A DNA stretch of 64,000 bases, from the NCBI GenBank assembly GCA_028697725.1, contig JAQVEG010000003.1, forward strand, positions 53,741 to 117,740, read 5' to 3'. Positions within the stretch are counted from its first letter, which is position 1. Each line of letters opens with the position of its first letter. Origin of the DNA: Anaerostipes sp. (GTDB taxonomy: Bacteria > Bacillota > Clostridia > Lachnospirales > Lachnospiraceae). The translations under genes and the position numbers were made by a program. This document shows positions 31,675 through 43,963 of this stretch, piece by piece. The notes beneath the pieces were generated by a model. The model searched no databases. It saw nothing but the letters and a program-made list of their open reading frames with translations, and was not told the origin of the DNA.

Positions 31675-32313
31675 CTATAATGATATCACTCGATTACACG
31701 CCTCCATGACATCATCATCGTGGGATACAATCAATATGGTTTTCCCTTGTTTTTGAAAATTATGGAGCAAGGAAATCACATCCCTTTTATTATCCCAATC
31801 TAAAGAACCCGTTGGTTCATCTGCTAAAATCAAATCAAAATCACGTAAAAATGCTCGTGCAATGGCAACTCTTTGCTGCTCACCTCCGGACAGTTGATAT
31901 ACTTTCTTTGATAAATCAACTTCTAGTCCAACTTTCTTTAATGCTTCTATCTTTGCTTTTTTCTTCTCTTGTTTTGACAACTTTGAGTCTATCATTGGAA
32001 TTTCCAGATTGTAATCGATACTTTTTTCATCGACTAGAGCATAATTTTGAAATAAATATAAAACCTTTTCTCTCATCAATGCAACGGACTTCTTGCTCCC
32101 AAACTTCGGAAGATCTTCTCCAAATAAACATACTTTCCCCTCATCTGGCTGCTCAAACATTCCTATAATATTTAGAAGAGTACTCTTTCCACATCCACTT
32201 TTTCCTTTGATTCCAACCATTTCTCCCTGTTCTACCGTAAATGTAATGTCCTTTAAAACATGCTTTTCTTTGAAACTTTTATGGATATGCTCTACTTCGC
32301 AAACTTGATTCAT
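31675..32313 (-). CDS. ABC ATPase of the lactococcin 972-type export group
   Basis: A 212-residue cytoplasmic ATPase with Walker A GKSGCGKST (residues ~38-46), signature LSGGEQQRVAIARA, Walker B LILADEPTGSLD and the switch histidine in IVSHDD. The LYLFQNYALVDEKSIDYNLEI stretch after the Q-loop is characteristic of ATPases paired with bacteriocin-associated seven-TM proteins (TIGR03608-like). Its partner is the 713-residue protein immediately upstream (gap 2 bp). Last gene of the accessory island; role probably export or self-protection. Confidence 0.85.
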   Translation of the reverse strand: MNQVCEVEHIHKSFKEKHVLKDITFTVEQGEMVGIKGKSGCGKSTLLNIIGMFEQPDEGKVCLFGEDLPKFGSKKSVALMREKVLYLFQNYALVDEKSIDYNLEIPMIDSKLSKQEKKKAKIEALKKVGLEVDLSKKVYQLSGGEQQRVAIARAFLRDFDLILADEPTGSLDWDNKRDVISLLHNFQKQGKTILIVSHDDDVMEACNRVISL

Positions 32314-32315
32314 TT

Positions 32316-34457
32316 CTATACTCCTCCCTTTAATGTTTTCAACAGCATCTTCTTTTCTAAATGGCTAATATAAATAGAAAGTAAAATCCAATCAAAAATT
32401 GTAATTATTATTGCCTCTACAAGAAGCATAATGACATCTTCCCCTTGGTTCAAAAGAATAGACCCAAGAACTGAAATTGCTGTCATTCCAAATTCCAGCA
32501 AATATATCTTTGTATATACTTGTTTCCTTTTCCATCCAAACAACCGTTTTATAGCATAATCTTGTCGTTTCCGCTCAAATAATATAGTGCTAGTCTGCAT
32601 TGTTAAATACAACACAGCAGCTCCCGCAATGACCATCATCAACACTTGAATTCTTAAATCCATCTTCAATTCATTTATCTTAATTCTTGCTTTCTCGTTA
32701 ATCTGAATAAAATGTACAAAATTATCATCCAATTGGTATTTTTTAAGAATTGGCAGCAGACTCTTATAAGTATCTTTACTTGACTTTATAATCGGTATTT
32801 TTAATGGGTCACTATCTGAATTTCCAAGAATTGCATCTCTATCCCCCAGACAGCTATTTTCTTCTGTTACAACCTGAATAATAGAATCCCAGACCATATT
32901 CCCCTGATTTTCATTGACCTCTGGATGAAAAGAAAATATACTCTGGTTATTCTTCATCCATACAATTTTTAATTTTTGCTCCATTACTTTTTTTGATGGC
33001 TGTATTTTATAATAATCAATATCTGCATCTTTTTTCATGGATGCTCTATCTTCAAGATAGTATTTTCGTATCTTCTTTTCTTCTTGTTTATATTTTTCTG
33101 GAACAAGCAATATCCAGTCTGATTCCTTCTCAGAAATTGATATTCTTTGTCCCTTTGTGTCATACAATGCATACTTTTTCAAGTAATTAGGATTTACTTT
33201 ACAGTCATTGTATCCTTTCCATTCTTGATTTTGCTCATCTTCTACCTGCTGTTTTTCATAACTTGCTGCATTGATTAAAATTGCACCCATTTGATTTAAT
33301 TTTGGATATAAATCTCGGCGTACTGTAATCTCTGTTTCCCGTTCTCCTTCTTCACCACTGTCATTTCCATTACACCAAGCATCAAAAACTCCATAGTTAC
33401 TGCTTTGATCCCAGCCTTGATACATTTTCTGTTTACTTCGTATTGTGCCATATTGATGAAACACTCCAGCTATAAACAAAATCAAAAAGACTGTTGCCAA
33501 TACTTTGATTCCCATATTCACCATTGTAATAATTAATGTTCTATCTTTCCCTTTTAATTCATCCCTCACTCTGCATCCTTTCACAAGCCCAATTCCAATG
33601 AGCATTGTAATAAAAAAGAAAGCAAGAAATCCAATTCCCATATATTTTATGAGGAAAAGAATATACTCCTGTCTTTTTTGAAGAAGAATCATAAGAAGTG
33701 TTTCTATTAACATCAGACCAAGATATAGTTTATAAAAATAAGACTGTAGAAATAACACAGCCTTTCTTTTTCCATATCCAAAGATCCTTAATATTGCCGT
33801 TTCCTTTGCACTTCGATATAAGTAATACAAAAATAGCAAGAAAAATAATCCGATAAAAAACAGATTTGCTTCTATAAATATGGTTTCATCCATAATCGGT
33901 AATGTAACCGCATCATCTCCACTTTCCAAATTTTTTAGCGTCGTAATCTTTGGTGCTAGATTTTTTTTGCTTTTTTTATTTATCTCTTTACACAATACTT
34001 TCTTATATCCTTCAATATCATCCTTATTCTTTAATTCTACATAATAGGTTCCCCCAGCAGGAATTGCATCTACGATTTCTGACATATCTTCTAGTTTTAC
34101 GTGTAGTTGATTCTTATAGTATCTATTCCACGTTTCTGCCTCTTTCCATTTGTCAAAGCACTTACTATCCCCCTGAACCATAGAATAATTCACCAAGTTA
34201 GTCCGTCCACTTGAAGTCTGTGTTATGGTTGTACGAAACACATTTGCATTATATTGTTTAGATGCTTTCATTAAGGCATCCATCATATCATCGTTTGTAT
34301 TGCCTGTTTCAGATGCTTTCGGCAAGTAGAATCGATTTCCACTTGATTGATTTATTTTTGAAACTTCCTGTATCTTTTGATTCGAAAACTGTATTGACAA
34401 AATTCCAGCCTGAAGTGCAAGAAAACAAATCAGGATAATAGAGCATATTCTTTTCAT
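32316..34457 (-). CDS. Bacteriocin-associated integral membrane protein (FtsX-like permease)
   Basis: A 713-residue membrane protein. It has an N-terminal signal/anchor (residues 1-25), an extracytoplasmic part, a group of membrane segments at ~190-340, a second large outside domain (~340-600) and further segments at ~620-705. This plan and the paired ATPase match the TIGR01654-like 'bacteriocin-associated integral membrane' family, permeases found beside class II or lactococcin 972-type bacteriocins and thought to give immunity or aid export. GAGGAGG precedes the start. Whether it serves the island's peptide or another compound is unknown. Confidence 0.75.
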   Translation of the reverse strand: MKRICSIILICFLALQAGILSIQFSNQKIQEVSKINQSSGNRFYLPKASETGNTNDDMMDALMKASKQYNANVFRTTITQTSSGRTNLVNYSMVQGDSKCFDKWKEAETWNRYYKNQLHVKLEDMSEIVDAIPAGGTYYVELKNKDDIEGYKKVLCKEINKKSKKNLAPKITTLKNLESGDDAVTLPIMDETIFIEANLFFIGLFFLLFLYYLYRSAKETAILRIFGYGKRKAVLFLQSYFYKLYLGLMLIETLLMILLQKRQEYILFLIKYMGIGFLAFFFITMLIGIGLVKGCRVRDELKGKDRTLIITMVNMGIKVLATVFLILFIAGVFHQYGTIRSKQKMYQGWDQSSNYGVFDAWCNGNDSGEEGERETEITVRRDLYPKLNQMGAILINAASYEKQQVEDEQNQEWKGYNDCKVNPNYLKKYALYDTKGQRISISEKESDWILLVPEKYKQEEKKIRKYYLEDRASMKKDADIDYYKIQPSKKVMEQKLKIVWMKNNQSIFSFHPEVNENQGNMVWDSIIQVVTEENSCLGDRDAILGNSDSDPLKIPIIKSSKDTYKSLLPILKKYQLDDNFVHFIQINEKARIKINELKMDLRIQVLMMVIAGAAVLYLTMQTSTILFERKRQDYAIKRLFGWKRKQVYTKIYLLEFGMTAISVLGSILLNQGEDVIMLLVEAIIITIFDWILLSIYISHLEKKMLLKTLKGGV

Positions 34458-34501: not shown

Positions 34502-35146
34502 TTATATTCCATATATTACTCTATCTAGAAATCCAAGAGAAATTGCTATCACAATTGGCACAATAGCAGAAAAAACTGTTCCTGCTTCCTCTATCTTTTG
34601 TAGTGAATATTGTTCACTACTAAATTTCATAACAAATCTAAAAAACATCTTTTTACATAAGCAATATATGAAATACCCAAGCATTGTTCCTAATGTATTT
34701 AAAAATAAATCTACTACATCAGATCCTCGAAACAAGAATAACTGCCAGCACTCAACAAATAAGGAAATCAAGAATCCAAATAAGGTTACCTTCAAAAAAG
34801 AATTATATCTATTACAAATCAAAGGAACCAAAAACCCAACAGGCATAAACAACAATACATTTCCAACGATATTGTACACTCCAAACATTCCTTCATTTAA
34901 CATTTCACCAATTCCATTTATCAAATTTATATTTATTGTTGAAATATCTATTTTTAAATGAAATCCACTCATTGGTGTAATTCCTGTAATAACGGTAATT
35001 ACATTCATTATGCTGCCAAAACACAAAAGTCCGACCATATTCCATTTGTTATACGTTATCTTCAGGTTATATTTAATTACCAAAAACCATATTAAATAAA
35101 AAACCATTATTACTATTTCATTTCTTATAAGTAATTGTGAATCCAT
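34502..35146 (-). CDS. VanZ-like membrane protein
   Basis: A 214-residue protein with five to six membrane segments. The VanZ-family core is visible as NIVGNVLLFMPVGFLVPLI followed by LISLFVECWQLFLFRGSDVVDLFLNTLGTMLGYFIY (residues ~113-165). VanZ of Enterococcus raises teicoplanin tolerance by an unclear route; relatives are common in peptide-antibiotic clusters. Located between the ABC exporter and the bacteriocin-associated permease, it may add to producer protection. Confidence 0.8.
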   Translation of the reverse strand: MDSQLLIRNEIVIMVFYLIWFLVIKYNLKITYNKWNMVGLLCFGSIMNVITVITGITPMSGFHLKIDISTININLINGIGEMLNEGMFGVYNIVGNVLLFMPVGFLVPLICNRYNSFLKVTLFGFLISLFVECWQLFLFRGSDVVDLFLNTLGTMLGYFIYCLCKKMFFRFVMKFSSEQYSLQKIEEAGTVFSAIVPIVIAISLGFLDRVIYGI

Positions 35147-35163: not shown

Positions 35164-36918
35164 TTATATATTATCTTGTAGAGAATAGAGTTTATAATAT
35201 ATGCCTTTATTTTTCAACAAGTCATCATGAGTACCAATCTCGTTTATTCTACCTTTATCTAAAACAATAATCTTGTTTGCCTTCAACATTAACTCACTAA
35301 ACCTATGCATAATTAATATTTTAATTTTTCCATCAGTTTCAGAAATAATTGAATTCAACACTTTTTTCTCTGACATCAAATCTAACGAGGAATTAGGTTC
35401 ATCAAAAATATATAGCTCTGCGTCACTAATTAATGCTCGAGCAGTAGCCAATTTTTGCCATTGTCCAATAGAAATCTGTTGTCCCTCTGAAAATTGATAT
35501 CCTAGTATTTGATTCTTTTTTTCTTTGAACTCATTAAGTCCTACTTTTACAAGCAACTCATCTATTCTCGACGATCCCTTTTCTTCTAAATTACCATACA
35601 AAATATTTTCAGATATCTTTGTTTCATATTTTATATAATTTTGAAACATCACTCCTACCTTTTCTCGATAGGCTTCTTTGTTCAAAAGCTTCAAATCTAT
35701 CCCATTTACATATATCATTCCCTCATAATCATGATAAACACACATTAATATCTTCATAAGTGTCGATTTTCCTGACCCATTGTATCCCATTAATATAACA
35801 AAATCTGATGGATCAAATGAAATATTAATATTCTTTAATGTGTAATCTTGCTGATTCTTATATTTATAAGAGACATCTTCTAATTTTATATTCAATATTT
35901 TGTCTATTATAATACCATTTGAATTAACATTCTCAAGTGGTAATTCAAAAAAATTTTTAACTTGAATTATTACAGCTACATTCTTGTATATTGTTGATAG
36001 TTGTTTAAAGATTGAAATCATATTTTGCTTTAGACTACTAATAGAATTATTATATAAAATAAATTGACCAATTAATAGTTTTCCAATAAATGTTTGAAAA
36101 ACAATTGTCGCCGTTATCAAAAAATCAATTACTGTTTCTACCATACTAAGTATACTGTATAGTAAAGTTTTTCTATTGTATATATTTTCTAATTTTGAAT
36201 TTGTGACTCCTTTTATTTCTTCATACTGTTTAATAAAATGCGAGAATAAATTAAATACTTTTATCTCTTTAAAAGACTCTGCATTTGTTAATACATATGA
36301 AATATATGAACTTCTCCTTTCTAATTCTGTATTTTCAATTATTGTATCATATTCAAGCAAACTATATTTTTTTTCAAAATAATATCTAACGATTGGAACT
36401 GCAATTATTGTTAAAAGAAATAGTATATTATATTTCATCAGTATTACTATATAGGAAACTGTACCAATTAAATTTGATATTACATTAAAAAATGTTTCCA
36501 AATTCCCTAATATTCCGGTGTTTGCATCATATTGTGTTCTATTAATCAAATCATACACATCACTGCTTTCAAATTCCTTACTATCAAGTTTGGATATCTT
36601 TTTTAATATCTTTATCTGCATAAAAGTTTCAAATTTTATTTCATTTGTCTTTAATCTTAACTGAACAAAATTTAATAACAGTTCATTTAATATTTCATAT
36701 ATTGACAATGCAATTATCAATATCATAATAATTTTTAGGCTCTCTGATTTTAATTGAATATCATTGATTATCCTTTGGGTTAATAATAGAGATATTATTG
36801 GATTAATTCCATTTAAAATTGCTTCTAATATTAAAAGAACAAAATAAGATGCTTTAAAACTAACTATTCTTTTTATTGACCAAATCAATCCCTTAATTAT
36901 TCTTTTGGTATTTTTCAT
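35164..36918 (-). CDS. ABC exporter (fused permease-ATPase), no peptidase domain
   Basis: A 584-residue half transporter: six membrane segments (~20-310) then an ATPase with Walker A MGYNGSGKST, a shortened signature ISIGQWQKLATARA and Walker B LYIFDEPNSSLD. The SIGQWQK signature form recalls lanthipeptide and other peptide exporters. No N-terminal C39 protease is fused, so it should export the peptide without cutting the leader. AT content is higher than in the flanking housekeeping genes. Likely the exporter for the modified peptide encoded at 41814-41987. Confidence 0.85.
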   Translation of the reverse strand: MKNTKRIIKGLIWSIKRIVSFKASYFVLLILEAILNGINPIISLLLTQRIINDIQLKSESLKIIMILIIALSIYEILNELLLNFVQLRLKTNEIKFETFMQIKILKKISKLDSKEFESSDVYDLINRTQYDANTGILGNLETFFNVISNLIGTVSYIVILMKYNILFLLTIIAVPIVRYYFEKKYSLLEYDTIIENTELERRSSYISYVLTNAESFKEIKVFNLFSHFIKQYEEIKGVTNSKLENIYNRKTLLYSILSMVETVIDFLITATIVFQTFIGKLLIGQFILYNNSISSLKQNMISIFKQLSTIYKNVAVIIQVKNFFELPLENVNSNGIIIDKILNIKLEDVSYKYKNQQDYTLKNINISFDPSDFVILMGYNGSGKSTLMKILMCVYHDYEGMIYVNGIDLKLLNKEAYREKVGVMFQNYIKYETKISENILYGNLEEKGSSRIDELLVKVGLNEFKEKKNQILGYQFSEGQQISIGQWQKLATARALISDAELYIFDEPNSSLDLMSEKKVLNSIISETDGKIKILIMHRFSELMLKANKIIVLDKGRINEIGTHDDLLKNKGIYYKLYSLQDNI

Positions 36919-36933
36919 TAAATGAAATCCTTT

Positions 36934-38136
36934 CTAATTCTCCTTCTCTTGTATTCTCAACTGAAACATCCATGGTGCCACTACTGCACATATAACAATA
37001 TAGGCTATTGCTGATAATACTATTGCTGTAACAGGTAAAACAAAAAAAGAACCTATTTGATACTGAAATAATTTATCTAGATATGAAAAAATACTAATTC
37101 CATTGGCTGGTTGTATTAAGGCTATCTTTCTTACTACATAAGGAACATAATCACTACTGCATAAAACTTTAGGTATCAGCAAAATTACACCGGTTAAAAT
37201 CAGTGACGGATAGGTTTTTTGAATCATAGCATTCAAAAGAGTTCCTGTAAAAGCAATTGCCATAATTGATATCCATGCAACAAAAATAAAGTAGATATAT
37301 AACTCACCAAAATTCCAGTTATAAGGAACCAGAAAAAAATCCGCCATCATTTGTATTTGTGAATTCCATCCTGATATTCCTCCAATTGAAAAAGTAATCA
37401 ATGATACAATGGCTGTACAAAGGACAAACACTAGGCTCAAATAAAAACTCATAGATAATATTTTCTTTACACCAATCAACATAAGTCGTTTTTTATCCAT
37501 AGAATTTAAAATCAAATCCATATGCGTTTCCTTTTCAAAAGAGAACAACTGATTTGAGATAATAACTGCAAGAAATGCAATTATCATATATACAAAATGC
37601 ATTGATTTTAATAAAACCGGCCATTGCTCAACAAACTCAATCTTGAATGTCTGCTTCATTTTTGACACATATTTTAAAAGTGCCCCTCTTTCTTTTATTG
37701 GTACTTTAGAATTAGTTGCTTGTTCTTTTATTTTTTCTCTATGCAGTTTATAAAAGTAATTTGTATTTTTTATTTTCCGAAGTTGAAAGCTGTCCTCCTC
37801 GCCAATGGGAGCATATGCTACTCTCAACAGTTGATATAATCCTGGATACTTGCCATCAATGATTATATCTGATTCATCCTTATCTGGTAATTTCTTATAA
37901 AACGCTAACACTTCGTTTAATCTTTTTGTCGATAAGCTTCCTTGAATTTTTTTGTATTTTTCTTTTCTTGCCTTTATTGCTTTTACTCCTGATATCTTGG
38001 TTTCCTTTCCTTTTGAAAAAGAATACATATCATAATCGTGAACAAAAAATAATGGAAGAGCTGCTGATAATATAAATAATATAAAAACAAGAATAACAAC
38101 AGCCATATTGCTTTTATTTTTTTTTAATTCATACAT
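36934..38136 (-). CDS. ABC-2-type membrane protein, copy B
   Basis: A 400-residue membrane protein: one N-terminal segment (~13-32), an extracytoplasmic domain (~35-170) and five segments to the C-terminus. It shares layout and short motifs with the upstream gene: a LNEVLAFYKKL helix, a YPGLYQLLRVAYAP stretch and VVRKIALIQPANG near the end correspond to similar parts of copy A, so the two arose by tandem duplication. With the ATPase at 39320 it would form a heteromeric ABC-2 pump, a common immunity device. Confidence 0.7.
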   Translation of the reverse strand: MYELKKNKSNMAVVILVFILFILSAALPLFFVHDYDMYSFSKGKETKISGVKAIKARKEKYKKIQGSLSTKRLNEVLAFYKKLPDKDESDIIIDGKYPGLYQLLRVAYAPIGEEDSFQLRKIKNTNYFYKLHREKIKEQATNSKVPIKERGALLKYVSKMKQTFKIEFVEQWPVLLKSMHFVYMIIAFLAVIISNQLFSFEKETHMDLILNSMDKKRLMLIGVKKILSMSFYLSLVFVLCTAIVSLITFSIGGISGWNSQIQMMADFFLVPYNWNFGELYIYFIFVAWISIMAIAFTGTLLNAMIQKTYPSLILTGVILLIPKVLCSSDYVPYVVRKIALIQPANGISIFSYLDKLFQYQIGSFFVLPVTAIVLSAIAYIVICAVVAPWMFQLRIQEKEN

Positions 38137-38142
38137 TGGTTA

Positions 38143-39330
38143 CTACCCCTCTCTTATACTTTTCGTATATATTTTCTCAATTGCCACCATACATACCACT
38201 GATAAAAAAGAAAGATTTAAAATCATTCCTGTTGAAGTTAATACATGAAAGAACATGATTTTGTATGTATACAATGAAGATATTATTTTTTCAAAAAAGC
38301 AGGCGTTTATAGGCATCAACATACAAATTTTTCTTATAATATGAGGAAGTCCTGTAAATCTTATTAGAAAAAATGGAACTACAAACAAAACAAAACCAAC
38401 TACAAACGATGTATATGTTTTCTGAATTATCGTATTAATCAGGCATGTTACAACACCAATTGTTATCATTGCCAACCAACCAATTAATATGAACAATAGA
38501 TACGCCGAACCAAAGCTTATATTTAAAAGTGACGTAAAATACTGAATTTGTAATTGCCTGTTCCATGCACTTGTTCCAACAGCCACAAAAAATACAACAC
38601 TTGATATTCCAACACTCATGAAATACATTTTTGATAGAAAGACAATAAATACATTCATTTTGTTGCGTATTATGTTTTTTAGCTTTTGTTCCTCTATCGT
38701 ACACAAAATTAAATTCATAGAATTTTCATTTTCAACAGAAAATATTCTTGTTCCCATAAAAACTGCAAAAACAGAAAATAACATGGCAATGAACATCAAC
38801 GTCTTATATGCATAAGTCCATGTATTACTATATTCTGAACTATATGGCTTTTTAATTGCTTTCGCTTTTTTTACTGCGTTTGAAATTTCTTGTGCTGTGT
38901 ATTCTTGATCCGTATCTTCCATTCGATGCTTTATTTGAACCCAATTCCTTTTATAAAAATCATCTGCGTTTTTTATTTTTTTATTTCCATTTATATCTAA
39001 TTCCGGATATGCACTAAATAACAAATTGCTAAGGGTGGGATATTTGTAAATACAGTTTACATATGCACTATCACTTGACGCGAAAGATTTATAATAATTC
39101 AACACTTTATTCATCTTCTTTTTCGTGATAACTCCATTTGATGCACTATCCCTATTTTTCTCCTTTGAAAAAGCGCCTACTCCTTTTTTCACAACTAAAC
39201 TGTTTGGATTGGTCATGGTGTCATATGTGAGCAGCGGCAAAAAAGCAATGAGAACTGAAAATATGATAATTCCAATGATTACTATTTTTCTTTGTTTACT
39301 ACTCAATATTTTCATCAATTCACTTTTCAT
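38143..39330 (-). CDS. ABC-2-type membrane protein, copy A
   Basis: A 395-residue membrane protein with the same plan as copy B, six bases apart: anchor at ~12-32, outside domain to ~170, then about five membrane segments. Matching motifs are KMNKVLNYYKSF, YPTLSNLLFSAYPEL and IIRKICMLMPINA. It overlaps the ATPase gene by 11 bases with GGAGGAG inside that gene, so the pump parts are translationally coupled. Confidence 0.7.
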   Translation of the reverse strand: MKSELMKILSSKQRKIVIIGIIIFSVLIAFLPLLTYDTMTNPNSLVVKKGVGAFSKEKNRDSASNGVITKKKMNKVLNYYKSFASSDSAYVNCIYKYPTLSNLLFSAYPELDINGNKKIKNADDFYKRNWVQIKHRMEDTDQEYTAQEISNAVKKAKAIKKPYSSEYSNTWTYAYKTLMFIAMLFSVFAVFMGTRIFSVENENSMNLILCTIEEQKLKNIIRNKMNVFIVFLSKMYFMSVGISSVVFFVAVGTSAWNRQLQIQYFTSLLNISFGSAYLLFILIGWLAMITIGVVTCLINTIIQKTYTSFVVGFVLFVVPFFLIRFTGLPHIIRKICMLMPINACFFEKIISSLYTYKIMFFHVLTSTGMILNLSFLSVVCMVAIEKIYTKSIREG

Positions 39331-40189
39331 AATCTCCTCCTTCTCTTTTAAAATTAACTAGATATACATCATTGAGTGTGGGCGCTACTTCTTTTGCATA
39401 TTCTACTGGTCTAGTTGGGTGTATTACACGTGCCTGTATTTTATTCCCCTTATCATAAATCATAGATATTGTATGATTCTCAGCAAACTGATTCAAATCT
39501 AACTCATTGTTAAATTCTACTTCCCAGACAAAACCAGAACATTTTTCAATCAAATCTTCTTCTTTTCCAGACATTACAAATCCGCCATCTTTCAATATAT
39601 AGATTTCTTTTGAAATGTACTCTAAATCACTCACTATATGGGTTGATATTAATACAATTTGATTATGTCCCACCCCATTCATATAATTTTTGAATTTAAT
39701 TCTCTCTGTAGGATCTAATCCCGTTGTTGGTTCATCTAACAAAACAATTTTAGGATTTAACTGAAATGCTTGTGCTAATCCAACTCTCCTTAATTGTCCT
39801 CCAGAAAGATGCTTCAATTTCTTATTTTTTAATTCAGACAAGTGAAATAATTCCAATTTTTCTTTGATATCATTTTTAATCTCTTTTTTCTTATATTTAG
39901 ACTTCACTGACCCTAAATAAAATAAAAATTCTTGAACTGTCATATCTGGATATCCACAAAAATTCTGTGGCAAAAAACCGATTAAAACATCTTGCTTTTG
40001 TTCCACTTTGGGATACTTAACAGTTCCATCATATCCTGAAATATTCATACTAATAATATGAAATAACGTAGTTTTACCAACTCCATTTGCACCTAAAAAA
40101 CCATAGATTCCTGGCTCCAATTCCATATTAATGTTGTCCAGCACCAATTGTTTTCCGTACGACATACTGACTTGTTCTAGCTTTAACAT
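39320..40189 (-). CDS. ABC ATPase of a BcrA/ABC-2-type pump
   Basis: A 289-residue ATPase: Walker A GANGVGKTT (residues ~34-42), signature LSGGQLRRVGLAQA, Walker B IVLLDEPTTGLD, H-loop ISTHIV, and a ~70-residue C-terminal tail typical of bacitracin/lantibiotic immunity ATPases. It follows the maturase by 47 bp and drives the two tandem ABC-2 proteins. Expected role: pushing the mature peptide off the producer's membrane. Confidence 0.85.
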   Translation of the reverse strand: MLKLEQVSMSYGKQLVLDNINMELEPGIYGFLGANGVGKTTLFHIISMNISGYDGTVKYPKVEQKQDVLIGFLPQNFCGYPDMTVQEFLFYLGSVKSKYKKKEIKNDIKEKLELFHLSELKNKKLKHLSGGQLRRVGLAQAFQLNPKIVLLDEPTTGLDPTERIKFKNYMNGVGHNQIVLISTHIVSDLEYISKEIYILKDGGFVMSGKEEDLIEKCSGFVWEVEFNNELDLNQFAENHTISMIYDKGNKIQARVIHPTRPVEYAKEVAPTLNDVYLVNFKREGGDYEK

Positions 40190-40236: not shown

Positions 40237-41712
40237 CTAACTGAACTCTGTTTTCTTTAACAAATATTCCAATCCTTCTCTATCTTGTTCAAATAATCTA
40301 TAATAATTTATAAACAAGTCTTTTATTATACGCCTAGAACTGTCACATATTTCTTCTTGGGATATTTTTTTAACTCCATTTCCATCCATTGTTTGGTCAT
40401 AACAAATAGAGCACATTGGTCTTGCCCAGCATTTATCACATGATTTTTCAAAGTTCTTTATATAATCTTCAATATATAATTTATAAGATTTATCAAAATC
40501 ATATCCATCTTTATAATTTCCTAATAGTACTGAGTTTCCTACCTTCTCACATGGTCTGAAATCACCATCTACCGTAACATATATTCTTCTCTGTCCAGGA
40601 ATACAATTCCCTTGTAAATATGTACGTTCTATTATTCCTTTTTCTTCTTTCATTCTTCCCGCAACTCTTGCCATATCAGTACCAACTATATTAAAAAACT
40701 TAAGTTTATCTTTTCCATTAATCATATTATCTACTGCCCATTCTTCTAACGGACTCGTCTTCAATTTCCCTGTAATATCATCTGCAATTATTTCATTCTC
40801 CTCAAAATCAAATGTCATGTTTCCACCATCGACATAAGAATAATTACAAATAATCTCTTCTGGAATATTTAATATCTTGTAAAAAAAATCATTTATTGTA
40901 TCCATGTTTTTTTTACTATATGGCGGTGTCAATACACAATTTATTGAAACTGTTTTTTTCTTTTTTACATCATAAAATTTATCTACAAGCAACTTTAGCC
41001 CCTTAACTGCATCATCAAACGTTCCTCTACCATTTGCATATCTTCGATATTTATCATGTAAATCGCTGGGTCCATCTAGGCTACACATAATATCAACATC
41101 ATCATCTAAGCTCTGAAAATACCGAACCATTGATTCCGTTAACAAAGTTAAATTAGTTGTAAAGGCAATTTGCAACTTAATATTTTTATACTTCTTCTTT
41201 GTATAATCTATACATTTTTGCATAAGACTAAAATTCATCAATGGCTCCCCACCATAAAACGTTAATGCAAATTCATCTCTCTTATAATCTTCCAAAACAT
41301 AGTCAATGCTTTTTTTAGCAATATCAAATTTCATTTCTTTATTTGAAAATCCTCTAAAATCCGGATGATATTCATTATATATACAATATCCGCATCGCAA
41401 ATTACAAATCTCTGTTAATTCTAAAATTATTTGCTCACAAGAACTTTTTACTGCTTTTACAAATTCTTCTTTTGTAGGAACAATAAATTTTCTTTTTTCT
41501 GGACACTTAAATAAATCCTCTTTTTTTATAAACATTCTAAAATCTACATTTGTACTACATGCTTCATTCAATGTCAAACTATTATTTAAAATATTTTCAA
41601 TAATAGTTTTTTCTTCTTTATTGCACTTTATAACTTTTCCATTCCCTGAATCATAATAATAAAATATATTTTCAGATGTCTGAAATAACATCCCATATCT
41701 TTGATTATTCAT
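40237..41712 (-). CDS. Radical-SAM/SPASM peptide maturase (sactisynthase-like)
   Basis: A 491-residue radical SAM enzyme. The SAM-binding 4Fe-4S cluster motif is C103-x3-C107-x2-C110 in EICNLRCGYCIY; the GGEP motif is at ~154-157. A SPASM domain holds seven cysteines (C370, C388, C425, C428, C434, C437, C456) for two auxiliary clusters. Residues 1-95 form an N-terminal part likely to bind the leader. This set is that of enzymes linking Cys sulfur to alpha or other carbons of a precursor (sactipeptides, ranthipeptides). The cysteine-rich precursor gene lies 101 bp upstream. GGAG eight bases before the ATG. Confidence 0.9.
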   Translation of the reverse strand: MNNQRYGMLFQTSENIFYYYDSGNGKVIKCNKEEKTIIENILNNSLTLNEACSTNVDFRMFIKKEDLFKCPEKRKFIVPTKEEFVKAVKSSCEQIILELTEICNLRCGYCIYNEYHPDFRGFSNKEMKFDIAKKSIDYVLEDYKRDEFALTFYGGEPLMNFSLMQKCIDYTKKKYKNIKLQIAFTTNLTLLTESMVRYFQSLDDDVDIMCSLDGPSDLHDKYRRYANGRGTFDDAVKGLKLLVDKFYDVKKKKTVSINCVLTPPYSKKNMDTINDFFYKILNIPEEIICNYSYVDGGNMTFDFEENEIIADDITGKLKTSPLEEWAVDNMINGKDKLKFFNIVGTDMARVAGRMKEEKGIIERTYLQGNCIPGQRRIYVTVDGDFRPCEKVGNSVLLGNYKDGYDFDKSYKLYIEDYIKNFEKSCDKCWARPMCSICYDQTMDGNGVKKISQEEICDSSRRIIKDLFINYYRLFEQDREGLEYLLKKTEFS

Positions 41713-41751: not shown

Positions 41752-41793
41752 AAAGGGAACGAAGGGAAACTTGAGTTTCCCTTCGTTCCCTTT
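41752..41793 (-). terminator. Strong hairpin between precursor and maturase genes
   Basis: Two perfect 20-base arms (41752-41771 and 41774-41793) separated by two bases. On the minus strand the stem is followed by only a short GTTTAAT run, so it probably acts as partial terminator and 3' stabiliser, giving much more precursor mRNA than maturase mRNA. Confidence 0.8.
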
Positions 41794-41813: not shown

Positions 41814-41987
41814 TCATGCTTTTTTTGCACGTGCATGATTCTGATTATTATTTTTGGTTCCATGACTACATTGACACTTGCAACTCCAAATTGGATCAAA
41901 TAATCCTCTTGTTTTTGCTTGTCCACTACTACACACACATCCTGCTTTAGGTGTTGCTCCTACATTTAAATCATTTACTACTTTCAC
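41814..41987 (-). CDS. RumC-like sactipeptide precursor, five cysteines
   Basis: A 57-residue open frame, GTG start, with AGGAGG (41995-42000) exactly seven bases upstream. Residues 1-14 (MKVVNDLNVGATPK) look like a short leader ending in Lys; residues 15-57 are the core. The core starts AGCVCSSG and has Cys17, 19, 36, 38 and 40, then an Asn/His-rich tail ending AKKA. Ruminococcin C has core cysteines 3, 5, 22 and 26; shifting by 14 puts Cys17, 19, 36 and 40 on these four positions, with Cys38 extra. Lys56 falls on the RumC acceptor Lys42. A Trp sits two residues before the second cluster. It is directly upstream of the maturase. Too short and with a non-ATG start, it is easily missed. Confidence 0.9.
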   Translation of the reverse strand: MKVVNDLNVGATPKAGCVCSSGQAKTRGLFDPIWSCKCQCSHGTKNNNQNHARAKKA

Positions 41988-42081
41988 TTTTTTTCCTCCT
42001 TAATTTTTTATATTACATACATAATAAAAGCACAAACATCATAATTTCTATGAATATTCTAGTCGACTTGCTTTTGAATAC

Positions 42082-42110
42082 ATAATACACCAACTCTCGT
42101 TCATCGTCAA
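42082..42110 (-). promoter_or_regulatory. Promoter of the precursor peptide gene
   Basis: Minus-strand -35 TTGACG (42105-42110), 17-bp spacer, -10 TATTAT (42082-42087), about 95 bases upstream of the GTG. The decamer ATACATAATA (plus strand) occurs at 42078-42087 over the -10 and again at 42017-42026 in the leader; these may be binding sites for the divergently encoded BlaI-like repressor. Confidence 0.75.
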
Positions 42111-42206: not shown

Positions 42207-42596
42207 ATGATAAACAAAAAGAAATTAACCAAAAAGCAATTAGAAACTATGAAGATTTTCTGGTCTTCGTCCAATCCACTGACTGCATCTGACATTGTAG
42301 AAAGGAATCCTTCCCTCAACATCAATACTGTACGGGCAACGATTAAGTTTCTACTAGATAACAACTATATTAAAGCTGACGATGTGGTCCTAAAGAACAA
42401 GTCTCTGACTCGTACATATTCTCCCACAATAACAGCGGATGAATATGTTGTGTCTACATTTTCTAAATCTAGCAAGACTTTATTCTCTACTGCTATTGTT
42501 TCAAATCTAGTAAGCCAAGAGAATGATTTAACTAAGATTAAGGAATTAAAAGCAATCATCGAACAGAGGGAACAAGAATTAAAGGAGAATCAATAG
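42207..42596 (+). CDS. BlaI/MecI-family transcriptional repressor
   Basis: A 129-residue winged-helix repressor: LTKKQLETMKIFWSSSNPLTASDIVERNPSLNINTVRATIKFLLDNNYIKADD is the DNA-binding part, and residues ~85-125 form the dimerising helices that in BlaI are cut on induction. It is divergent to the peptide gene with a 219-bp shared control region, and followed at once by its M56 partner. AAGGAG precedes the ATG. Confidence 0.88.
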   Translation: MINKKKLTKKQLETMKIFWSSSNPLTASDIVERNPSLNINTVRATIKFLLDNNYIKADDVVLKNKSLTRTYSPTITADEYVVSTFSKSSKTLFSTAIVSNLVSQENDLTKIKELKAIIEQREQELKENQ

Positions 42597-42597
42597 C

Positions 42598-43746
42598 ATG
42601 TTAGTACCATCATATGGCTCAGTCATATCTTGCTTATTATTTGGAAACATATTAATCTTATATTTTTATTTACAATCTAAGAATCATCTATACATTTTAA
42701 AGTATGGATGTCATATTGTAATAATCAGCATGGTTTTTCTTATGTTGCGTATGTTCTTTCCATGCAATTTTGTATTTACCTATAGCATATACATGAAGCC
42801 ATTGGTTATTCCATTGATGGATTTTTTGAGAACAGAGATTTTTCCTGGAATTCAGTTATTAACTATATTATTGTATCTATCTCTTGGTGGATTTTTGATA
42901 AAGTTATCTTTACTTCTTTATCAGCAATATCAGTTTTTTCAGATGATTCAAATTTATCCTCCATTAGAACATAAGCTCGCAAATAGCATATTAGAACAAC
43001 GAAAAGCCGTACATGGGATTAAGAAAAGAATTTATCTCATCGAGACTTCTCTCATAAAAAGTCCCTGTATCACTGGTTTTCTACATCCCACGATATTACT
43101 ACCAGACAATAACTTTTCAGTGAGCGAACTTACATATATCTTGGATCACGAACTGCAGCATTATCTCCATCACGATTTATGGATTCGTCTTCTTTGTGAA
43201 TTAATGGTATGTTTTTACTGGTGGAATCCTTTGTCTTATTTATTACGAGGACATCTAGGAAAAACATTAGAATTTACTGCAGATTTTTCCACAACGAAAT
43301 CTATGGATAAATCAAATCGACTACATTATATGAAGTGTATTCTAGACGTAGCTGACCAGCCTGATATAAGAACTATCCCCGTTGCTCCCCTATGCTTTTG
43401 GGAAGGTGATACCAATATTCTAGAACAAAGATTCACTCTGATTCTAGACCGTCCAGATAAAGTCAAGAAATCTTTATCTTATATTATCAACATTGCTATT
43501 ATCACTGTAATTATGTTCATATCTATCTACTGTGCATTTGAACCAGATTATGAGGTTCCAAAAGAAATTACAGAGACTACAGTCGCCTTGGAAAAAGACA
43601 AGACTTTTTTTATCAAAAACAACGGTAAATATGATGTATATTACAAAGGCAACTATAATGGTTCTGCTGATAGCGTAAAAGATTTTTCAGGATACCACAT
43701 ATATTCAAGTAAAAAGGAGGCTAAAACACATGAAAAGTTTAATTAA
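42598..43746 (+). CDS. BlaR1/MecR1-like M56 metalloprotease, no penicillin-binding domain
   Basis: A 382-residue membrane protease. Membrane segments at about residues 8-28, 35-55, 85-110 and 298-318; the zinc motif H184-E-x-x-H188 in DHELQHYLHHD follows. BlaR1 carries a ~250-residue beta-lactam sensor outside; this protein ends with only ~60 extracellular residues (with paired YYKGNYNG and YHIYSSKKEA parts). It probably senses something else, such as wall damage or the peptide itself, and frees the peptide operon by cleaving the BlaI-like repressor. One base separates the repressor stop from its ATG. Confidence 0.85.
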   Translation: MLVPSYGSVISCLLFGNILILYFYLQSKNHLYILKYGCHIVIISMVFLMLRMFFPCNFVFTYSIYMKPLVIPLMDFLRTEIFPGIQLLTILLYLSLGGFLIKLSLLLYQQYQFFQMIQIYPPLEHKLANSILEQRKAVHGIKKRIYLIETSLIKSPCITGFLHPTILLPDNNFSVSELTYILDHELQHYLHHDLWIRLLCELMVCFYWWNPLSYLLRGHLGKTLEFTADFSTTKSMDKSNRLHYMKCILDVADQPDIRTIPVAPLCFWEGDTNILEQRFTLILDRPDKVKKSLSYIINIAIITVIMFISIYCAFEPDYEVPKEITETTVALEKDKTFFIKNNGKYDVYYKGNYNGSADSVKDFSGYHIYSSKKEAKTHEKFN

Positions 43747-43963
43747 AATAAGTTTATTTTCTTGTATTCTTATTTGCGGAATCTGTTCAATTCAACCTAC
43801 TTATGCAGCTTCACCAATAGAATCCATAACCGTTTCTGATATTTCTATCACACCAAGAAAAGATAAAATTATATGGAAATACAGATTTATAAATGGAACA
43901 TTGTATAAACGAAAATACAACGTCACTCAAGAAAAGTGGCTTGGAAGCTGGGTCAAAGTATAA
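43730..43963 (+). CDS. Small secreted protein coupled to the BlaR1-like gene
   Basis: A 77-residue protein with a clear signal peptide (MKSLIKISLFSCILICGICS..., cut predicted after YAA near residue 27), leaving ~50 residues with two Trp and many basic residues (IIWKYRFINGTLYKRKYN, WLGSWVKV). It overlaps the 3' end of the M56 gene by 17 bases, with AAGGAGG inside that gene. No family recognised. Could be a ligand or modulator of the sensor, or an accessory immunity peptide. Confidence 0.8.
   Translation: MKSLIKISLFSCILICGICSIQPTYAASPIESITVSDISITPRKDKIIWKYRFINGTLYKRKYNVTQEKWLGSWVKV

Follow-up and report, generated by a model that had tools for sequence, protein, structure and literature searches.

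We analysed a 57-residue precursor peptide encoded on the minus strand (41814–41987) of a 64,000-nucleotide stretch of Anaerostipes sp. DNA, the whole of which is referred to here as the window, together with the radical-SAM/SPASM maturase gene beside it. Our comparisons support the view that this five-cysteine peptide is a variant related to ruminococcin C (RumC), belonging to a subgroup distinct from RumC itself. In the model that we favour, the maturase would turn the precursor into a RumC-like double-hairpin sactipeptide. An original prediction had proposed a new RumC-like precursor with an altered ring pattern, and its core holds, in that the gene is real, coding and RumC-related; the product is likely a double hairpin with five bridges. 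The claim of novelty for the fifth cysteine is not upheld, and the acceptors in the second hairpin probably shift by one residue.

The precursor frame starts at a GTG codon with the Shine–Dalgarno sequence AGGAGG 7 nt upstream (41995–42000, minus strand), and its translation places cysteines at positions 17, 19, 36, 38 and 40, all as originally described. With the window peptide alone as query against 5.8 billion proteins, five other clusters were recovered at 65–73% identity (E 1.1e-20 to 9.4e-16). Comparison with the copy in Mediterraneibacter agrestimuris (locus L007) showed 18, 13 and 33 differences at the first, second and third positions of the 57 codons. Identical residues numbered 32 of 57 in this frame, compared with 19/56 and 18/56 in the other two, with dN at 0.35 and dS saturated. 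This excess at third positions is the pattern of a coding frame, and the open reading frame at 41814–41987 is a real coding gene. The peptide had been called unannotated, which is correct with respect to the NCBIfam cut-offs; in the protein database, however, Pfam family PF27802 is precomputed on 23 of 37 precursor clusters, including the window's own protein.

In order to define the family, we ran a profile search from the peptide alignment, which yielded 43 clusters at E ≤ 10 and 37 at E ≤ 3.3e-6, the window's own counted. The resulting alignment has 38 rows (the window peptide, L007 and 36 clusters) and omits six short fragments (P0038–P0043) and the window's own cluster (P0001). All 36 complete rows carry C-x-C followed by C-x-C-x-C; the two further rows are truncated. 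The approximate consensus reads MKVVNE...AGCVCSSG...TRG.W.PIWNCNCQC.GGT.N.NAN..KA. Eight of the 37 precursor clusters have a longest contig equal in size to that of a maturase cluster among the first 84 in a list of 120 (shared sizes include 29,081, 186,066 and 23,824 bases), with a chance expectation by length jitter of 0.15. The relatives anticipated by the original prediction thus exist, with conserved cysteine spacing and linkage to maturase genes.

A precursor match was present in 5 of 299 genomes of the family sample and 8 of 392 of the order sample, the window's own genome counted in both. The precursor pattern matched 58 stretches in genome contigs, one of which (L007) encoded a relative, and 19 stretches in viral contigs, none of which did; plasmids gave no match to the precursor. 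Among the surroundings of eight genomes (G209, G026, G019, G154, G543, G580, G302 and G575), only those in G209 and G543 have a precursor with the cysteine pattern beside bacteriocin-type genes. Matches in G520, G467 and G294 were weak and interrupted by stop codons.

Compared with the PDB, the peptide profile matched RumC (6t33_A) best, at a weak E of 0.33. As predicted, an offset of 14 brings four cysteines into agreement with Cys 3, 5, 22 and 26 of 6t33_A, so that window residues 17, 19, 36 and 40 follow the CxC-x16-CxxxC register of RumC, with Cys38 added. The two peptides also share the GCVCS start, the 16-residue loop, the outer cysteines of the second cluster, a similar N-rich tail, a Lys or Arg three residues before the first cysteine and a radical-SAM/SPASM maturase. 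Unlike RumC, the window peptide has a fifth cysteine in its second cluster and, ahead of the NAN-like stretch, a tail that is shorter by one residue. The window has a single precursor and a single maturase, whereas RumC has five precursors and two maturases (PMC6779426).

Against the NCBIfam models the window precursor remains below every precursor cut-off. It scored 13.9 bits (E 0.038) against the RumC family NF035950, whose cut-off is 40, and 13 of 38 relatives match that family at E ≤ 0.01. The CA_C0660 family (NF035954) is the best match: at E ≤ 0.01 it recognizes 37 of the 38 aligned peptides, and the window peptide scores 25.8 bits against a cut-off of 60. The Apre_1838/CLOSPO_01332 family (TIGR04067) matches 28 of 38 members at this threshold and the window peptide at 24.7 bits (cut-off 45). 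In 245 genomes of the class, TIGR04067 gave two weak matches, one being the window's own, and none over cut-off. A distinct subgroup, as originally proposed, is supported both by the sub-threshold scores of precursor and maturase and by a clade of 78 maturase rows, although the latter comes from a quick tree with long branches and warnings. Among the titles and abstract openings listed from open-licence literature, we found no report of a CxCxC RumC-like peptide. Two other peptides were considered and set aside: Gnavucin D, a gut Mediterraneibacter sactipeptide with a 29-residue thurincin H-like core and a 9-residue leader (PMC13239113), and mediterrocin, of the lactococcin 972 family.

To place the fifth cysteine in context, we examined 12 loci that carry a RumMC-like maturase (L034, L036–L045 and L052), nine of which gave an accepted precursor. 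The second cluster is CxCxC or CxxCxCxC in five of the nine (L036, L038, L039, L045, L052), CxxxC in three (L034, L040, L041) and CxC in one (L037). Since the triad is no rarer in these nine loci than the RumC spacing, a fifth cysteine does not set the window peptide apart, and the claim of its novelty was not borne out. Two of the triad-bearing precursors belong to families already named by NCBI: L045 is a CA_C0660 member (82.5 bits, cut-off 60) and L052 an Apre_1838 member (103.7 bits, cut-off 45), a family that goes with the CcpM maturase (TIGR04068). L045 shares the CxCxC second cluster with the window peptide but has CxCxC as its first cluster too, and L052 has CxC followed by CxxCxCxC. 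L034 (104.7 bits) and L041 (113.8 bits) pass the RumC cut-off of 40, and the L039 precursor matched none of the families tested. Among 51 usable precursors the second cluster is CxCxC in 40 and CxxxC in seven; this count is biased, as 36 of those 40 were retrieved by the search that defined the window's own family, and the nine loci form the more balanced sample. Cysteine counts per cluster among the precursors read were 2+2, 2+3, 2+4, 3+2 and 3+3. On the maturase tree, with 14 labelled rows, at least three changes of the middle-cysteine state are needed, a figure that is only indicative given the quality of the tree.

A tandem pair of precursors in genome G209 (locus L008, 5475–5877) carries CHCQC and CKSNC, so that the middle cysteine falls within the CxxxC frame. 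This genome is 98% complete and contains no RumMC-type maturase at E ≤ 1e-30; the two genes may be an orphan pair, or there may be a gap in the assembly. In a separate observation, the genome of L041 (7557–9316) has four RumC precursors and a maturase that reads as two separate open reading frames.

What, then, might the fifth cysteine do? The bridges of RumC, in precursor numbering, join Cys24 to residue 31, Cys22 to Asn35, Cys45 to Arg53 and Cys41 to residue 61 (PMC6779426, PMC8172795). The donor-to-acceptor distances are +7 and +13 in hairpin 1, where the donors are two residues apart, and +8 and +20 in hairpin 2, where they are four apart. These values suggest a register in which each donor step covers two residues and each acceptor step four. 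Since a spacing of two between donors goes with one of four between acceptors, a rung is left unoccupied in the second hairpin of RumC. In the profile alignment to 6t33 a single gap follows the second cluster, and this alignment pairs RumC Arg34 and Lys42 with Asn47 and Lys55 of the window peptide; the Asn48 and Lys56 named originally are therefore likely to be one residue off, whereas the first-hairpin acceptors Thr26 and Phe30 stand. With this gap, the empty RumC rung corresponds to Cys38 with column 51. Cys38 would fill the rung that RumC skips and would probably form a fifth thioether.

On this basis, hairpin 1 (41898–41939, minus strand) is predicted from the RumC register and columns 26 and 30 to contain Cys17–Phe30 (+13) and Cys19–Thr26 (+7). 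Hairpin 2 (41823–41882, minus strand), from the 6t33 alignment and column 51, would contain Cys36–Lys55 (+19), Cys38–His51 (+13) and Cys40–Asn47 (+7). Known sactipeptide acceptors include His, Tyr, Phe, Lys, Asn and Thr (PMC8326336). Thr occupies column 26 in 34 of 38 rows; among filled rows, column 30 has Trp or Phe in 30 of 31 and column 51 has His, Tyr or Phe in 31 of 36. The most conserved tail columns are 48, 50 and 54; these align with RumC Asn35, Asn37 and Ala41, which are not acceptors, and we therefore dropped column conservation as a guide. We consider it reasonably probable that the product is a thioether-bridged double hairpin like RumC. The exact map of five bridges is put forward tentatively and could well be wrong in detail. 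Somewhat more doubtful still is the generalization that RumMC-type maturases use one fixed register in which rung number (two, three or four) is dictated by the cysteine count, the window peptide being 2 + 3 and RumC having a skipped rung.

Several observations weigh against this model. The match to RumC described above is weak. His51 does not track Cys38: judged by eye, the CKSNC paralogue of L008 keeps the His and L040, with CxxxC, has a Tyr, whereas L038 and L045 carry the triad with neither His nor an aromatic residue at column 51. A His or aromatic residue in this column is hence no proof of a bridge. Two-donor loops span 11–21 residues where 11 are needed, and the two three-donor loops span 17 and 19 where 15 are needed; these lengths agree with the rung rule and with a double hairpin, but nearly all exceed the need and the test is a weak one. 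Finally, a SCIFF peptide with six cysteines is reported to have a single identified thioether (PMC8326336), so that a free cysteine is possible in the window peptide as well.

The peptide might instead carry four thioethers exactly as RumC, leaving Cys38 as a free thiol or in a disulfide. All four RumC cysteine positions are indeed present in the 6t33 alignment, and both the paralogue lacking the middle cysteine and the SCIFF precedent fit this arrangement. However, Cys38 is found in 36 of 36 complete rows and the triad recurs in five of nine other maturase loci; it seems unlikely that an unused thiol would be kept so strictly, and we regard the four-bridge arrangement as rather unlikely.

In the maturase (40237–41712, minus strand; 491 residues), family models and alignment identify a CxxxCxxC motif at 103–110 and seven SPASM cysteines; the cluster-binding residues (103/107/110 and 370/388/425/428/434/437/456) are invariant in 46 aligned maturases. 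In Pfam, Radical_SAM scores 65 bits, over its cut-off, and SPASM 19.5, just under 21.5. The nearest NCBIfam model is RumMC (NF035951) at 403.3 bits, below its cut-off of 720; the same model reaches 958 bits, over cut-off, in G543. Scores against CcpM (TIGR04068; 257 bits, cut-off 500), the SCIFF maturase (TIGR03974; 99.8 bits, cut-off 425) and the PapB family (140.8 bits, cut-off 340) are also sub-threshold. The identification of a RumC-related precursor beside a RumMC-like SPASM maturase is upheld. The closest solved fold is 5wgg/5why, at 21–23% identity, which we take to be CteB, a SCIFF maturase with a different substrate family. For this reason the fold does not settle the type of bond, a further point against the model. 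The alignment with 5why starts at model residue 1, and a model of the whole protein shows three strands followed by helices at 7–65, which may represent an N-terminal RRE domain.

One may ask whether the enzyme forms beta- or gamma-carbon thioethers, giving a ranthipeptide. This is suggested by the 5wgg/5why fold and the PapB-family score, but RumMC scores far higher, and hydrogen abstraction by RumMC2 takes place at the alpha position (PMC8188230), making a ranthipeptide improbable.

If the five-bridge model is true, the peptide would have more alpha bridges than any sactipeptide in PMC6779426, where the number reported is four; among sactipeptides the two-hairpin structure of RumC has been called unique (PMC6779426). 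Maturases that place two to four bridges per hairpin, if they do, would be useful tools for peptide stapling, and RumC1 has been discussed as a drug candidate (PMC8172795). The main value of the proposal lies in the rung rule, which mass spectra could confirm or refute: precursors of 2+2, 2+3, 2+4, 3+2 and 3+3 make it possible to examine if one such rule accounts for all bridges. The CA_C0660-family precursor of L045 (2260–2457), with three cysteines in each cluster, is a natural test case.

By analogy with RumC, the predicted leader comprises residues 1–14 (41946–41987, minus strand) and ends at Lys14, three residues before the first cysteine. Lys or Arg occupies this C-3 column in 25 of 38 rows, compared with 0–3 of 38 at C-4 to C-9, nine at C-10 and seven at C-12. 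Trypsin cleaves RumC1 after Lys19, three residues before Cys22, and this cleavage is needed for activity (PMC6779426); together with the C-3 enrichment, this makes a host-protease switch likely. The modified peptide would leave the cell through an ABC exporter that lacks a recognized peptidase domain (none was matched in Pfam at E ≤ 0.01 in the 584-residue window exporter or in five other exporters of such loci). A protease such as host trypsin would then be likely to activate it by cutting after Lys14 outside the cell. Two findings speak against a simple switch of this kind. Lys or Arg is lacking at C-3 in 13 of 38 rows and in seven of 14 precursors of other loci, and Arg27 in loop 1, itself a possible trypsin site, is kept in 35 of 38 rows.

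The surrounding genes are those of a putative bacteriocin cluster. The maturase had been described as directly adjoining the precursor; it is the neighbouring gene but does not abut it, as a 101-nt gap lies between the two with a perfect 20-bp inverted repeat (41752–41793; folding z −8.5), called on the plus strand only by a terminator scan. This repeat may be a partial terminator or an mRNA stabilizer, and could hold the precursor message in excess over that of the maturase. Beyond the maturase, all on the minus strand, lie an ABC ATP-binding subunit (39320–40189; 61% identical to the L007 copy), two membrane permeases (38143–39330 and 36934–38136; 35% and 39%) and the exporter (35164–36918; 54%). 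The L007 locus likewise groups a partial maturase, ABC ATPase, two permeases, precursor and ABC exporter, but in a different order, with the second permease on one side of the precursor and the exporter on the other. Downstream of the window exporter, and on the same strand, are genes for a VanZ-like membrane protein (34502–35146; family model), a bacteriocin-associated integral membrane protein (TIGR01654, 32316–34457; 211.3 bits, cut-off 189.35) and a lactococcin-972-type ABC ATPase (TIGR03608, 31675–32313; 271.9 bits, cut-off 254.85). These three may confer immunity, and VanZ, TIGR01654 and ABC genes would serve as self-protection.

On the other side of the precursor, family models identify a divergent pair on the plus strand, a BlaI/Penicillinase_R-type repressor (42207–42596) and a BlaR1-type M56 membrane peptidase (42598–43746). 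With this pair adjoining the precursor and an M56 gene in another RumMC-like locus (L040), the product could be a signalling peptide under BlaI/M56 control and not an antibiotic. This is a poor fit to the ABC exporter, the VanZ-like protein and the over-cut-off TIGR01654 and ABC ATPase proteins, which suit a bacteriocin cluster, and to the inhibition of Gram-positive bacteria by RumC and several other sactipeptides (PMC8326336), and we think it improbable. The peptide's likely role would be the killing of related Gram-positive gut bacteria; for RumC1, Bacillus subtilis 168 served as indicator strain (PMC6779426).

A few minor features of these regions may be mentioned. The M56 BlaR1-like gene of L040 (3218–4486) belongs to a second RumMC-like cluster, in genome G082. 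No lactococcin 972 gene was noticed beside the ABC and membrane protein genes at 31675–34457, the search being limited to one 77-residue open reading frame. An open reading frame of 77 residues at 43730–43963 overlaps the end of the M56 gene and has a signal-peptide-like start and no convincing family match. Promoter-like sites numbered 11, compared with 6.9 in shuffles. Upstream of the precursor, a 10-bp direct repeat, TATTATGTAT (minus strand; 42017–42026 and 42078–42087), overlaps two −10-like hexamers and is possibly the operator of the divergent BlaI-type repressor.
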